DNA from: a virus
Length of the DNA: 64,000 nt
Direction: 5' to 3' (one strand)
Virus record (IMG/VR): IMGVR_UViG_3300048836_000098
Span: 1 to 64,000 of that record
Program-made: the position numbers and the translations under genes
Notes under the pieces: model-generated
Database searches by the model: none
Told to the model about the DNA's origin: nothing
What the model saw: only the letters and a program-made list of their open reading frames with translations
Shown: positions 2,735 through 30,200 of the stretch, one piece after another
Position numbering within the stretch: the first letter of the stretch is position 1
How the letters are laid out: each line of letters begins with the position of its first letter

Positions 2735-3088
2735 ATGAAATCAATCTATAATGCCAGAATCAAAAGCACGTCTCTCGGCACGGAGGATCACGGAATATTG
2801 ACGTTCTACTTGCACCTCGAATGGAACGGCGGTGGATGTGGTTTCGGCGGGTACGCGCTTGACGAATATGACAAGGCAATGGACAAGCGGATTGCTACAG
2901 CTCGTGGGTTGCAATGTATTCAAGAAGTCATGCGCGTGGTTGGCGTTAGCTCATGGGAGTCGCTTGCGGGTAAATATATCCGCGTTGAGCAAGACGATTC
3001 AGAATATACAATTCACAAAATCGGCAATCTGATGGAAGATAATTGGATCGACCTTAAAACATTCTGGAAATCGGATAAGGAGGGTTAA
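2735..3088 (+). CDS. Conserved-looking phage protein preceding the RAMP-like gene, 117 aa
   Basis: AAGGAGG lies 9 bases before the ATG. The sequence has a Gly-rich turn (GGGCGFGGY) near residue 35, a helix with an Arg-rich region, and a WESLAGKYIRVE segment near residue 80. I recognise no named domain. Both this gene and the next begin MKSI and are separated by only four bases, so they are translated together. It is a candidate partner of the RAMP-like protein. Confidence 0.6.
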   Translation: MKSIYNARIKSTSLGTEDHGILTFYLHLEWNGGGCGFGGYALDEYDKAMDKRIATARGLQCIQEVMRVVGVSSWESLAGKYIRVEQDDSEYTIHKIGNLMEDNWIDLKTFWKSDKEG

Positions 3089-3092
3089 TTTT

Positions 3093-3716
3093 ATGAAATC
3101 AATCAAAGCACGAATCACATTCACAGAAGAAGTTCTCGGAACATGCGCGGGTGATCCTAGAATCCATGAAGAGTTCATTGCATCAAAAGCCCCGAACGCT
3201 CTGAATATGGAAGAAGAAGTTGCCGCGCTCGGTGTAGATGAAGTTGTCAAGAACGGCATGACGGTATTCCCGCGAGACAATCAAGACCGACCGTTTCTCT
3301 ACGACTACCAGATCAAAGGTTTCTTTAAGGACGCATGTTCGATGTTGTCAAGATGCTCCAGCAAGGACGCGAACGGCAAAAAACAGGCGGTCAACGAATC
3401 GTCCAAGATCACGGCATTCAAAAAGGTGATCGACGGTATGATTTTCGTAACACCAAGACAGATTCCGTTCGTGTTCGATGGTGCTGTTGGGAACTGCCAG
3501 CGACCACTCAGAGCGCAGACGGCACAGGGTGAGCGAATCGCCCTTGCAAACAGCGAAACCATTCCTGCGGGCGCGTACATTGACGTTGAGATCGTTCTGT
3601 TGAATGAAGCGTATGAATCGGCTGTCATGGAATGGCTGGACTACGGCAAATGGCGCGGCATTGGTCAGTGGCGAAATTCCGGCAAGGGCGCGTTTACTTA
3701 CGAATTGCTGAAATAG
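3093..3716 (+). CDS. RAMP-superfamily-like (Cas7-like) phage protein, 207 aa
   Basis: GGAGGG lies upstream of ATG 3093. The product opens with a beta strand (KARITFTEEVLGT). Residues ~69-82 (LYDYQIKGFFKDAC) match the S-x-K-G-x-hh-R-x-A helix of Cas7/Csm3-type RAMP proteins. The C-terminus ends in a glycine-rich loop at 189-199 (GIGQWRNSGKG), as in RAMP RNA-binding proteins. A conserved-looking QRPLRAQTAQGE stretch lies at ~136-147. RAMP proteins bind or cut RNA; RNA binding here is inference from these motifs. The gene ends in TAG at the exact start of the GGCA-rich tract, so protein and tract share a transcript. No other Cas gene is present. Confidence 0.55.
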   Translation: MKSIKARITFTEEVLGTCAGDPRIHEEFIASKAPNALNMEEEVAALGVDEVVKNGMTVFPRDNQDRPFLYDYQIKGFFKDACSMLSRCSSKDANGKKQAVNESSKITAFKKVIDGMIFVTPRQIPFVFDGAVGNCQRPLRAQTAQGERIALANSETIPAGAYIDVEIVLLNEAYESAVMEWLDYGKWRGIGQWRNSGKGAFTYELLK

Positions 3717-4139
3717 TTGCGACGGCAAATCCTTGCATCGTGAGCAACAGCACAGCAAGGAACTGAATATCTCCGCAAAGGCATTTGAATAGCGATACAA
3801 GGCAACGGCACTGTACGGACGAGCAGGGACTGCACGGCAATGGAAGAGTTCGGAAGGGCAGAGTTAGCAAAGGCAACGCTTAGAATCGAGAGGCGATGGA
3901 GTAGCAAGCCGAAGAGAAGCGCAGCAAAGGCAAGGCGTTGAAACGGATAGCAAAGGCAAGGCACCGTCTAGCACAGCGAGAGCGAGGCATGGCGGAGCGT
4001 AGCAACAGCATGGCAATGATTGGAGAAGCGGAGTTCGCAACGGATTAGCCAAGCATTGAGTCGCAAAGCAACAGAGAGGCATAGACCAGAATTGAATCGC
4101 AACAGCATAGCTTGTCTAGGCATGCATAGCCATGGCACA
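3717..4139 (+). repeat. Purine-rich GGCA/GCA-dense irregular repeat tract, non-coding
   Basis: Begins at the stop codon of the RAMP-like gene and runs ~420 bases. GGCA occurs at 3724, 3780, 3801, 3807, 3836, 3857, 3872, 3929, 3955, 3960, 3986, 4012, 4078, 4119 and 4134, against fewer than two expected by chance. GCAAAGGCA occurs at 3775, 3867, 3924 and 3950. Clusters of GCRRR units five to six bases apart alternate with unique 8-20 base segments, without a fixed period, so this is not a canonical CRISPR array. No credible start codon with ribosome site is present. Open frames on the complementary strand follow from base composition. It is presumably transcribed as a 3' extension of the upstream gene. 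Confidence 0.7.
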
Positions 4140-4145
4140 GACCTC

Positions 4146-4174
4146 TTGACAACCTCGCGCACTTGCTATATTCT
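4146..4174 (+). promoter_or_regulatory. Promoter of the small RNA gene
   Basis: TTGACA (4146-4151) and TATTCT (4169-4174) are separated by 17 bases; an overlapping TATATT (4167-4172) gives 15. The predicted start of transcription, ~4181, coincides with the first base of the paired RNA element. It starts just after the GGCA tract ends. Confidence 0.65.
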
Positions 4175-4545: not shown

Positions 4546-5358
4546 ATGAATACTGATATTCAAATTTTTAACAACGAACAATTTGGGAACGTTCGGGTTA
4601 TTGATCTAGGCGGTGAACCGTGGTTTGTTGCCAAAGACGTTTGCGAGGCGTTCAATGACACAAACCACATCAGAAGCGTTGGCCGGATCGATGATTCCGA
4701 TAAATGCGTGATTCAGGTTATTGACAACCTCGGAAGAACACAGAGCGCAACAGCGGTAAATGAGTCTGGATTATACTTGCTATTGTTCGGAATGCAACCG
4801 CAAAAGGCAAACAATAGTGGGGTGTCCGATGCGTACCCCATCGAGGTTCAGAAAAGAATCGATAGGTTGCGAGATTTTAAGCGGTGGATTACTCACGATG
4901 TTCTTCCATCTATTCGCAAGCACGGCATGTACGCAAAGGACGAACTACTCGACAATCCCGACCTGCTGATTGAGGTTGCAACCAAGCTAAAGCAGGAACG
5001 CGACGCTAGACTTTCCCTCGAAGCAGAGAACGCCGCTATGCTTCCAAAGGCAGATTTCTACGACGCGGTAATCGAAAGTTCCGACACCATCGAAATGGCA
5101 ACCGTCGCAAAGATTCTGAATGTTGGGATCGGTCGCAATAGACTGTTTGAAATTCTACGTGAACAAAAGATTCTTAGGGATGATAACACCCCATTGCAGA
5201 ATTACGTCGATCTTGGTTGGTTCAAGTGCGTCGAGAGCAAATACACTAAACCAGACGGCGGAACATTCATCAACGTCAAGACCGTCGTTTATCAAAAAGG
5301 TATCGATGGAATATTAAAGTTGCTTAAAGATAAATATAATTTGAAACCGATTGTTTGA
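4546..5358 (+). CDS. Phage antirepressor, Bro-N plus KilAC domains, 270 aa
   Basis: AAGGAG lies upstream of ATG 4546. Residues ~5-115 are a Bro-N domain (WFVAKDVCEAF, later NESGLYLLLFG and RDFKRWITHDVLPSIRKHG). Residues ~165-270 are a KilAC/ANT domain (AKILNVGIGRNRLFEILREQKIL, then Y-x-K-P-D-G). Such proteins bind DNA or repressor to induce lytic growth. Lies in an operon with the HTH gene before it. The next gene is four bases away. Confidence 0.9.
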   Translation: MNTDIQIFNNEQFGNVRVIDLGGEPWFVAKDVCEAFNDTNHIRSVGRIDDSDKCVIQVIDNLGRTQSATAVNESGLYLLLFGMQPQKANNSGVSDAYPIEVQKRIDRLRDFKRWITHDVLPSIRKHGMYAKDELLDNPDLLIEVATKLKQERDARLSLEAENAAMLPKADFYDAVIESSDTIEMATVAKILNVGIGRNRLFEILREQKILRDDNTPLQNYVDLGWFKCVESKYTKPDGGTFINVKTVVYQKGIDGILKLLKDKYNLKPIV

Positions 5359-27217: not shown

Positions 27218-30200
27218 GAAGTCTCCGCTACGTATATAAGTCCTTTGAATATTGCTGATCGCCTTCGTAGTGACTTGTTGGGTAGAGAAGTTGACCCCTG
27301 TTACCACGCTAAAACTTGTCGTTCCGCTGGAAAGCAAATAGGCTGTATTTTCATCCAAAGAGGTGCAGACTGAACGAGAACGCCACGAAGCCGAATACGG
27401 TTGCACGATAAATGAGTTTTGAACAATCAATTCCCTGACATACAGAACATTTGCTTGCGCAGTAGACGCATTAAGCCAACCGCTGATATAGGTTCCGATC
27501 GCATCGATCTTTACATAGTCAGCCTTAATCGAAGCGACAGATGCCGCCGCCGCGTTTGCCGTAACTGTAACAGAAGCGACTCTTCCGTCAACCTCGGCAA
27601 GCAACGTAGCGGAAGCAAAGTTGGCGTAAGCCTCTGCTCTTAATCCAGCCACACTAGACGAGACTAACGTACCAGTCTCGTCTTTTGTGTAATATCCCGC
27701 GAGAAGCGATAGCCTAGCGAAGTTTGCGTTTGTCCATGCTTCAAGACCCGCTCTAGCGGTAGATATTTTTCCATCGAGGTCTACGTAGTTGTGTTCAACG
27801 ATTGCGGTTAAGTTCGCTTCTTGCTCGTTCAGATCAACATAAACTTGTCCGATAGACTGGCGAGTTTCCCCTGCAAATGTTCTTAAATATTCCGCTTCAA
27901 ATCCAATAGTAGCGCGAACGTCATCAAATTCTTGAAAGAACCTTGCGTTAGAGATAATCTGTTCTTCCAAAGCGTCAGCAAGCGTACCACCGCCACCGCC
28001 GCCGCCACCTCCACGACGACCAGAGCTAGAGCCAGAACCAACGGAAATATCATCCGCACTGATTCTGCCTTTCGCATCGAACGCTGGCATTTCATCGGTT
28101 TTCTTGTAGATTAGCTTAAATATGTCGCGCACGTTGGCGTGAATATCACCGACCTCTAATGTTGTGTGGTTCAGCGGATTCCAAACGTCATACTCCCAAT
28201 TCACGATGCGTAGCAGTTCGCTTGTTTCTTCGCCTTTTTCGGAATCGACGTAGTATGCTTTTACAACAGAGTTCAGATCGAATACGTCAAACTCATAGCC
28301 GCCAATCTGTCTGCGATCAACAACTTTGTTCTCATATTTGACCGTCTTGCGCGGACGGCAGACCTTGCTTACTTCGCGTCTAGCCCAATTAAGAAGCTGT
28401 AGCATCCCGCCATCATCGAGAGTATCATATATGTTCGGTTGTTCTGCGTAGCCCTCATAAATCGTGTCAGTGTACGAGAAATCATCAACGTAGCGTTTGC
28501 CGCCGTTGACAAGAGAGATATTCAACTTATCTGCGCCTAAAGGATATAGCCTAGTAATCATATCTGCATTCCATATAACGCTAGGCATGCTCGTAATATT
28601 CTTGCCGCGCTTAATCGTAAATCCGTTCCACGTATTGAAGTCAGAACCTTCTTTGTCCTCGTCTCGATAGTGGATAACCTTGTGGAGACTGTCGAAAACT
28701 ATCACGCCGCCGTACAGTTCTTGGATTGATTCGATGTTCGAGAAAACATCCTTGGCATCCGTTTCAGCGTTAAATACACCCATCTCGTTTCCACTTACAA
28801 AGTGCGCAGTAGCACCCGCCGAGATCGACCCGCCGAGATTCAGAATCGTGATATCAAGGTTGCCATCACCATTTGTAGCGATACCGACAATACGTGCGCT
28901 CACGGGCGCGTCAGACCATCCAGAAGCGTCGTAGATAGAAATACTATAGCCTTGCTCCCAAGTGCTCGCGTAGGCGAAGCCAGCGTCCGTAGAAGGCACT
29001 GTGAACTTAGTTTCCAACGCCGCGCCGGAATTGCTGAACGCAACAACGCAATCATTCGAGATCGCTCCGCCGCTATTTGCGAACTTGACCGTGATCCTGC
29101 TGTCAGTCGCGTTGAAATACGAAACGGCGATAGAATCGGGAGCGTTCTCCCATTGCGGAACAGAATCGAGCGTAGAAATGTCAGCAATATAAAGCGTGTT
29201 ACCGACAGCCCAATTCAGAGCGCGTCTAAAAGAACTATCCGTATTCTGCGCGAGGTCAAACACCCAACTGTCGCTAGAAGCCTTATACGTGCCGTAGAGA
29301 GCAGTGAAGTCACGAACAGCCGTTGCACAGACAGCATCGACTTGCGACGTATTGAAATCGGCGTGAATCATGTCGCACGTTCCAAGCATCCAACCAGTAT
29401 CGCGAATCACAGACCACAAAGCGTAACCAGCAGAGCCACGCGGCATTAGAACGTCGCGCTCGTCCATCACAACGGAATCTTCGTACTGAACGCTGTTGAT
29501 TGATAGCTTATATTTATTGTTCGACTTCGGGAGAATCATCACAGTGTGATCATCGATAGATTCAAGACCCGCACCGAACAGAGCGGTTGCGCCAGAAGCG
29601 ATAGTCCCGCCGTAGTTATAGAATGTGATTATAATCGAATCTTCTGTCTTGGTGATCGAAACTGGATTGATATATTTCACCGCGCTTAACCACGTATCAG
29701 ACGGTTCAAGGATATAGATCGTATCGGTAACGTCCCACAACAGAGCCTTTGCAAAGTTCTCGTCAGAGGAAGCGATAACAACCGTAGCAAGCACTGCAAC
29801 CTTATTCGTTCTGTCATACTCCGCGCATTCAGTCGTAGCCGTTGCCTTGCTCTTGCTGTAGGTCATTACGTTATGCGCTTGGACGTATTTTTTTTTGAGC
29901 GTGTATTGTTCCTCTACAAGCGTTACAGTGGCGATACGAGCATCTTCGCCTTCAACGCCATAAACGATAGCATCGTCAGTCAGAGCCGTATAGACGCGAC
30001 CATTAACGTGATAGCGATTCTCTGGATTCTTAATCAGTTGGAACTTTTCGGAAGAAACGAGCATCTTAAACGTGAACGAGCTTTCGCCATTCTGCACCAG
30101 CTTCACGGTCGGCTCAACCATTATCTCACGACGTTCATCATCCGAAACAACCGCCGTAGGATGTTTAGGCGTGGGAATCGGATTGCCAAAGGAAGCGATT

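Follow-up and report, generated by a model that had tools for sequence, protein, structure and literature searches.

A recent preprint (PMC13142463, bioRxiv 2026.04.26.720920) describes VIPR, in which a phage RAMP protein (Vipr) is accompanied by vrRNAs made of tandem YNNGG pentamers, and supports it with biochemical evidence. According to the main text of that preprint, VIPR binds double-stranded DNA by non-contiguous pairing, in which NN is read and one base is skipped, and it represses its targets, seemingly those of competing phages and satellites. Seven types are reported, with 'GGY/NN motifs, or a related consensus' and, in some, staggered overlapping vrRNA arrays, and VIPR is presented there as a form of RNA-guided DNA recognition older than CRISPR. 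The system of Escherichia phage SUSP1, a type II VIPR reported to read DNA, has discrete vrRNAs of about 100 nt built from YNNGG units. The same source describes a structured 3' tail for the SUSP1 clade and a vap gene that is typical, not universal.

We identified a locus that very probably is a VIPR system in the IMG/VR virus record IMGVR_UViG_3300048836_000098, the first 64 kb of which form the stretch of DNA analysed here (the window). Its RAMP protein would be the Vipr protein, and the adjoining tract of pentamers would be a long array of vrRNA guides transcribed from the same strand. We place the locus there because its architecture and protein fold match; sequence homology is supportive, not conclusive. 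From what the preprint reports for other VIPRs we infer RNA binding, DNA recognition and repression by the locus as well. An initial annotation of this DNA had proposed a new type of RNA-guided system; this claim of novelty is overtaken by the preprint, where a phage RAMP with a tandem-pentamer guide RNA is already described.

The RAMP protein

The vipr-like gene lies at positions 3093..3716 of the + strand, preceded by a Shine-Dalgarno-like sequence (AAGGAGGG, 3077..3084, +) recognised by inspection. The open reading frame, a structural model with Foldseek and VIA-align comparisons, and a conserved family point to a single-domain RAMP protein of 207 amino acids with a Cas7/Csm3 fold. No family was assigned to it with confidence in searches of Pfam, PHROGs, NCBIfam or PADLOC. 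The AlphaFold2 model, built with 49 aligned sequences (pLDDT 87.1, pTM 0.80), begins with a strand at residues 2-10, has a helix at residues 71-86, and places a glycine loop immediately ahead of the last strand; residues about 20-55, a possible thumb site, are its low-confidence part. The initial annotation had read a beta-strand start, a helix at QIKGFFKDAC (residues 73-82) and a C-terminal glycine loop, GIGQWRNSGKG (residues 189-199), from the letters, and the model reproduces each of these. Its further expectation, that a structure search would return a RAMP fold, was borne out by Foldseek against the PDB, where type VII Cas7 (8z4j_J) came first (E 1.2e-8, probability 1.00), with Csm3-type chains next. 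VIA-align superposed the model on Csm3 (9g9j_D) with Z 14.1 and an rmsd of 3.4 Å over 154 residues, and the family profile alone found type VII Cas7 (E 0.0022) and Csm4 (E 0.013) by way of the C-terminal glycine loop. Because of these matches, the predicted assignment as a Cas7/Csm3-like RAMP, with an RRM core and glycine loop and with no further Cas domains, is supported. Across 49 aligned relatives the most conserved positions are YDYQIKGF-K, RPLRA..G.R, S154 and GxGQWRN..G; the first and last of these, which contain the motifs singled out earlier, are invariant or nearly so.

The resemblance to type VII Cas7 and to the Csm3 of type III-A covers the RAMP fold across nearly the whole chain and the C-terminal glycine loop, although identity is about 10-18%. 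With these as the nearest solved folds, the gene might be taken for an orphan component of CRISPR of type III or VII, its product being a Cas7 that relies on crRNAs of the host or phage. However, neither the Cas1 profile (PF01867) nor the Pfam RAMP profile (PF03787) matched anywhere in the 73.7-kb record, and none of the tandem repeats of the record is a CRISPR-like array; by these searches the RAMP stands alone in the phage, as had been claimed, and the locus does not look like class 1 CRISPR-Cas of type III or VII. By its position, the protein would have another RNA partner, and a conserved tract of non-CRISPR type adjoins the gene in nearly all relatives. We therefore hold an orphan CRISPR component to be extremely improbable.

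The pentamer tract

A guide-RNA-like tract at 3719..4140 (+), delimited with an HMM, Viterbi segmentation and a shuffle test, begins at the stop codon of the RAMP gene and is the sole such tract in the 64-kb window. It consists of GHNNN pentamers (H being C, A or T) with one extra G, in a GCAANGGC-type anchor, about every six units. The HMM, trained on the sequence behind the stop codon at 61 loci, has a 5-nt unit of three variable bases, a G (92%) and a C, A or T (62/21/14%), and roughly 15% of its units carry an extra G. In the window tract, the autocorrelation of G at lag 5 is 1.82, compared with 1.00 +/- 0.12 in 500 dinucleotide shuffles (Z 7.0), and no shuffle reaches the observed value. 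The longest chain of Gs at 5- or 6-nt steps on both strands of the 64 kb, with 25 Gs, lies within it at 3908-4033. The window tract folds no better than its shuffles (z +0.64) and has no stable fold; Rfam gave no match in it, and neither a hammerhead nor another ribozyme was found in nine related loci.

The steps between units, counted over 94 tracts of the family, are 5 nt in 7606 cases, 6 nt in 1575, 4 nt in 128 and 7 nt in 3, with a mean of 5.16. The 6-nt steps are not randomly placed. They are spaced by 5-7 units with a mode of six (486 observed and 99 expected in the 94 tracts), and the extra Gs thus produce a super-period of about 31 nt. The surroundings of the extra G read GC-A-A-N-GG-C, and the units in between are approximately random at their three variable positions. 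Family tracts are continuous, with a median length of 432 nt and a maximum of 1646, and hypervariable; within the first set, 20-mers common to both tracts were found for just seven pairs, most of which have a single one in common. Besides the abutting tract, additional long tracts occur a short way upstream in two loci (L194:1163-2683 and L195:1420-2800) and about 4.7 kb downstream in another (L081:13383-14067).

The sequence behind 93 tracts has nothing in common but a Shine-Dalgarno-like motif, apparently the ribosome-binding site of the gene that follows. Among the 80-nt stretches that follow the tracts, 28% are more stably folded than their shuffles by 2 s.d., compared with 4% of controls, which leaves room for a 3' structure that varies from locus to locus.

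Association of gene and tract

A tract on the same strand abuts the gene (within 150 nt) for 140 of 148 distinct family proteins, lying downstream in 82 loci, upstream in 43 and on both sides in 15. Of the remaining eight genes, four are no more than about 1 kb away from a tract, two are situated at the edge of their contig, one of them with the tract present, and two are on short contigs from which the tract is absent. The remaining sequence of the phages that carry the family, about 1.06 Mb, contained no further tract. A reverse search with the tract pattern only recovered 20 viral contigs, 19 of which have an adjoining RAMP gene. Gene and tract are thus tied to one another in both directions, and the RNA-like tract that had been proposed to start at the stop codon of the gene is real.

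The same data bear on the idea that the tract acts as DNA, for instance as a phased protein-binding or curvature element, an origin or a packaging site. The mean step of 5.16 nt is near half a helical turn, as such an element might have; however, two steps make 10.3, below 10.5, the extra Gs recur non-randomly at a spacing of about six units, and in the relatives the tract, where there is one, always has the strand of the coding sequence and is never antisense alone. We regard a role as a DNA element as very unlikely.

Family distribution and genomic neighbours

A search with the one sequence recovered relatives at 53 loci, and a profile search recovered 320 in viral contigs. Bacterial MAG contigs contain 45 family loci, mainly in Clostridia, and also in Coriobacteriales and others. 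The family is therefore found mainly in phages and prophages, and the window itself comes from a virus record. Two of the MAG genomes have several family matches, three in one and two in the other, all on separate contigs. One relative, A0A8S5R426 of Siphoviridae sp. ctcMb1, is 60% identical to the window protein and is known by its database annotation alone ('Cas system-associated RAMP superfamily protein'), in which no function is stated.

Directly upstream of the RAMP gene, in an operon with it, is a gene for a 117-aa protein (2735..3088, +; phrog_30930 in PHROGs, from the list of open reading frames), which is not a constant neighbour across the family. Directly behind the tract, at 4146..4174 (+), a promoter-like site, TTGACA-17-TATTCT, was found as a consensus match only, and it probably serves the downstream genes. 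Since the site is a good sigma-70-like match, the HTH and anti-repressor genes downstream may have a transcript of their own. The anti-repressor (4546..5358, +; Bro-N and KilAC/ANT by Pfam and PHROGs) is a marker of the early region. The RAMP gene often lies in the early replication and recombination region of family loci, where neighbour clusters include replisome-organiser-like (20 loci), SSB-like (15), anti-repressor (11) and YqaJ-like exonuclease (6) genes, named by eye except for the anti-repressors. Within 3 kb, each family of same-strand neighbours occurs in at most 20 of 147 loci, and no constant accessory gene was found; one loose, mixed-strand cluster occurs about 2.2 kb upstream of the RAMP gene in 54 loci.

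Comparison with SUSP1 and related phages

The putative Vipr gene of SUSP1 is located at 28477-29061 (minus strand), and its vrRNAs were placed by their YNNGG repeats, in both cases by reading the sequence. The alignment of SUSP1 Vipr with the window family by hhalign (E 4e-5, probability 67-70%) is clearest in the C-terminal half (G-x-G-x-W-R...GRF), where the C-terminus GVGDWRPRFGRF of the SUSP1 protein matches GIGQWRNSGKGAF of the window protein. With the SUSP1 system as described in the preprint's main text, the window locus shares a single-domain phage RAMP with a G-loop, same-strand, non-coding tandem pentamers adjoining the gene, the alternation of constant and hypervariable positions, and the C-terminal motif G[VI]G[DQ]WR...GRF. 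In contrast to the discrete vrRNAs of SUSP1, the tract of the window family is long and continuous, with its extra G at every sixth unit or so. The GHNNN unit is looser, the first G not being kept, and departs from a strict YNNGG/GGY consensus, and neither a conserved 3' tail sequence behind the tracts nor a constant counterpart of vap was found in the family.

Relatives of SUSP1 Vipr in Pseudomonas, Mycobacterium, Gordonia and Listonella phages have GGY/NN or GCNNN pentamers beside the gene. The Vipr of Listonella phage phiHSIC (AY772740), found through that of SUSP1 (31% identity), adjoins pentamers of the GCNNN form that the window also shows, and on this sequence evidence phiHSIC links the two repeat forms. 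The Vipr of a record labelled Staphylococcus phage SA1 (GU169904.1) is 98.5% identical to those of E. coli felixounavirus-like phages, so this record may be mislabelled or mixed. Relative to the SUSP1 system of the preprint's main text, the window family would be one with a distinct repeat register within VIPR, and the seven types of the preprint may already include it.

How the tract might be read

The variable positions were examined for the dinucleotide signature of genomic DNA; several pairs and gaps were tested, and the Z values given here are uncorrected for this. The pair formed by n3 and the next n1, across the G-H, carries the neighbour signature (Z 3.8), and the triplets fit contiguous reading best (Z 2.95, with other gaps at most 1.7). 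Both results fit about three target nucleotides per unit, the same number as in PMC13142463, with n3 at the place that is skipped in the rule reported there. The test of NN only with one base skipped gave Z -1.5, so the published reading rule is not confirmed by the dinucleotide signal. Depletion of stop codons in the decoded triplets is weak and occurs in several frames.

Two unrelated tracts (L069:684-1146 and L089:513-1005) have n1n2 in common over ten consecutive pentamers, with n3 differing at half of them; the differences are confined to the third base, H and one G. The stretch decodes to KMATGTGKTK, motif I of SF2 helicases and restriction enzymes, and its score was reached by about 10 of 3197 permuted sets (p about 0.003). 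We consider convergence of guides on motif I suggestive only, because the peptide was read after the match had been noticed. The core pattern of this stretch matched nine motif-I genes, as the pattern demands, its longer form matched one and its fullest form none, with none in 291 Clostridia-class genomes; in two host MAGs matches were no more numerous than for the control.

Searches for targets of the tracts gave no clear excess over permuted units, either with 36 decoding rules and exact matching in 1 Mb of related phage DNA or with 12 rules and extended matching in 2 Mb, and these decoding-rule and pattern scans revealed no natural DNA target of the family's tracts. Comparison of decoded peptides with phage open reading frames returned noise only. 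A single match of one guide stretch of the window tract in a 144-kb contig was taken as chance.

The TRAP protein binds RNA repeats spaced by 5 nt, and the RAMP protein could in a comparable manner bind its own tract, as an RNA scaffold or for autoregulation, in a filament or sponge that guides nothing to DNA. The fixed strand and position of the tract, the phasing of G every 5 nt and the outcome of the target searches would agree with this. A scaffold, however, needs no variation of the kind seen between the Gs, where the bases are hypervariable and little is common to the tracts of different phages, nor would it explain why these variable neighbours keep a genomic dinucleotide signature, even from n3 to the next n1; moreover, the homologous SUSP1 system reads DNA according to the preprint. 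We judge a pure scaffold to be improbable.

If the locus is a VIPR system, Vipr subunits would be arrayed along the RNA at about one for each pentamer, with the conserved G-H positions gripped by the G-loop and thumb. The intervening bases n1n2, perhaps with n3, would be presented to DNA, giving about three target nucleotides per 5 nt of RNA, and the complex would bind double-stranded DNA with a matching sequence, be it from competing mobile elements or from the host, and block transcription. More tentatively, and with a likelihood well below even in our view, the family could be a VIPR type with a register of its own: continuous modules of about 31 nt (5-7 GHNNN units and one extra G), in which the three variable bases come from contiguous target sequence, one codon per unit with the third base tolerated. 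The GCAANGG anchors may then mark overlapping guides, and some guides may aim at conserved motifs such as motif I of helicases and restriction enzymes.

The family of RAMP proteins with pentamer tracts has hundreds of members among phages that infect Clostridia and other bacteria, and provides a large, independently recovered set for the study of the pentamer code. Its super-period of about 31 nt and looser consensus bear on how RAMP filaments read DNA and on how the code varies between types. The window phage is of gut type, and VIPR systems are apparently used by phages against rival genetic elements.
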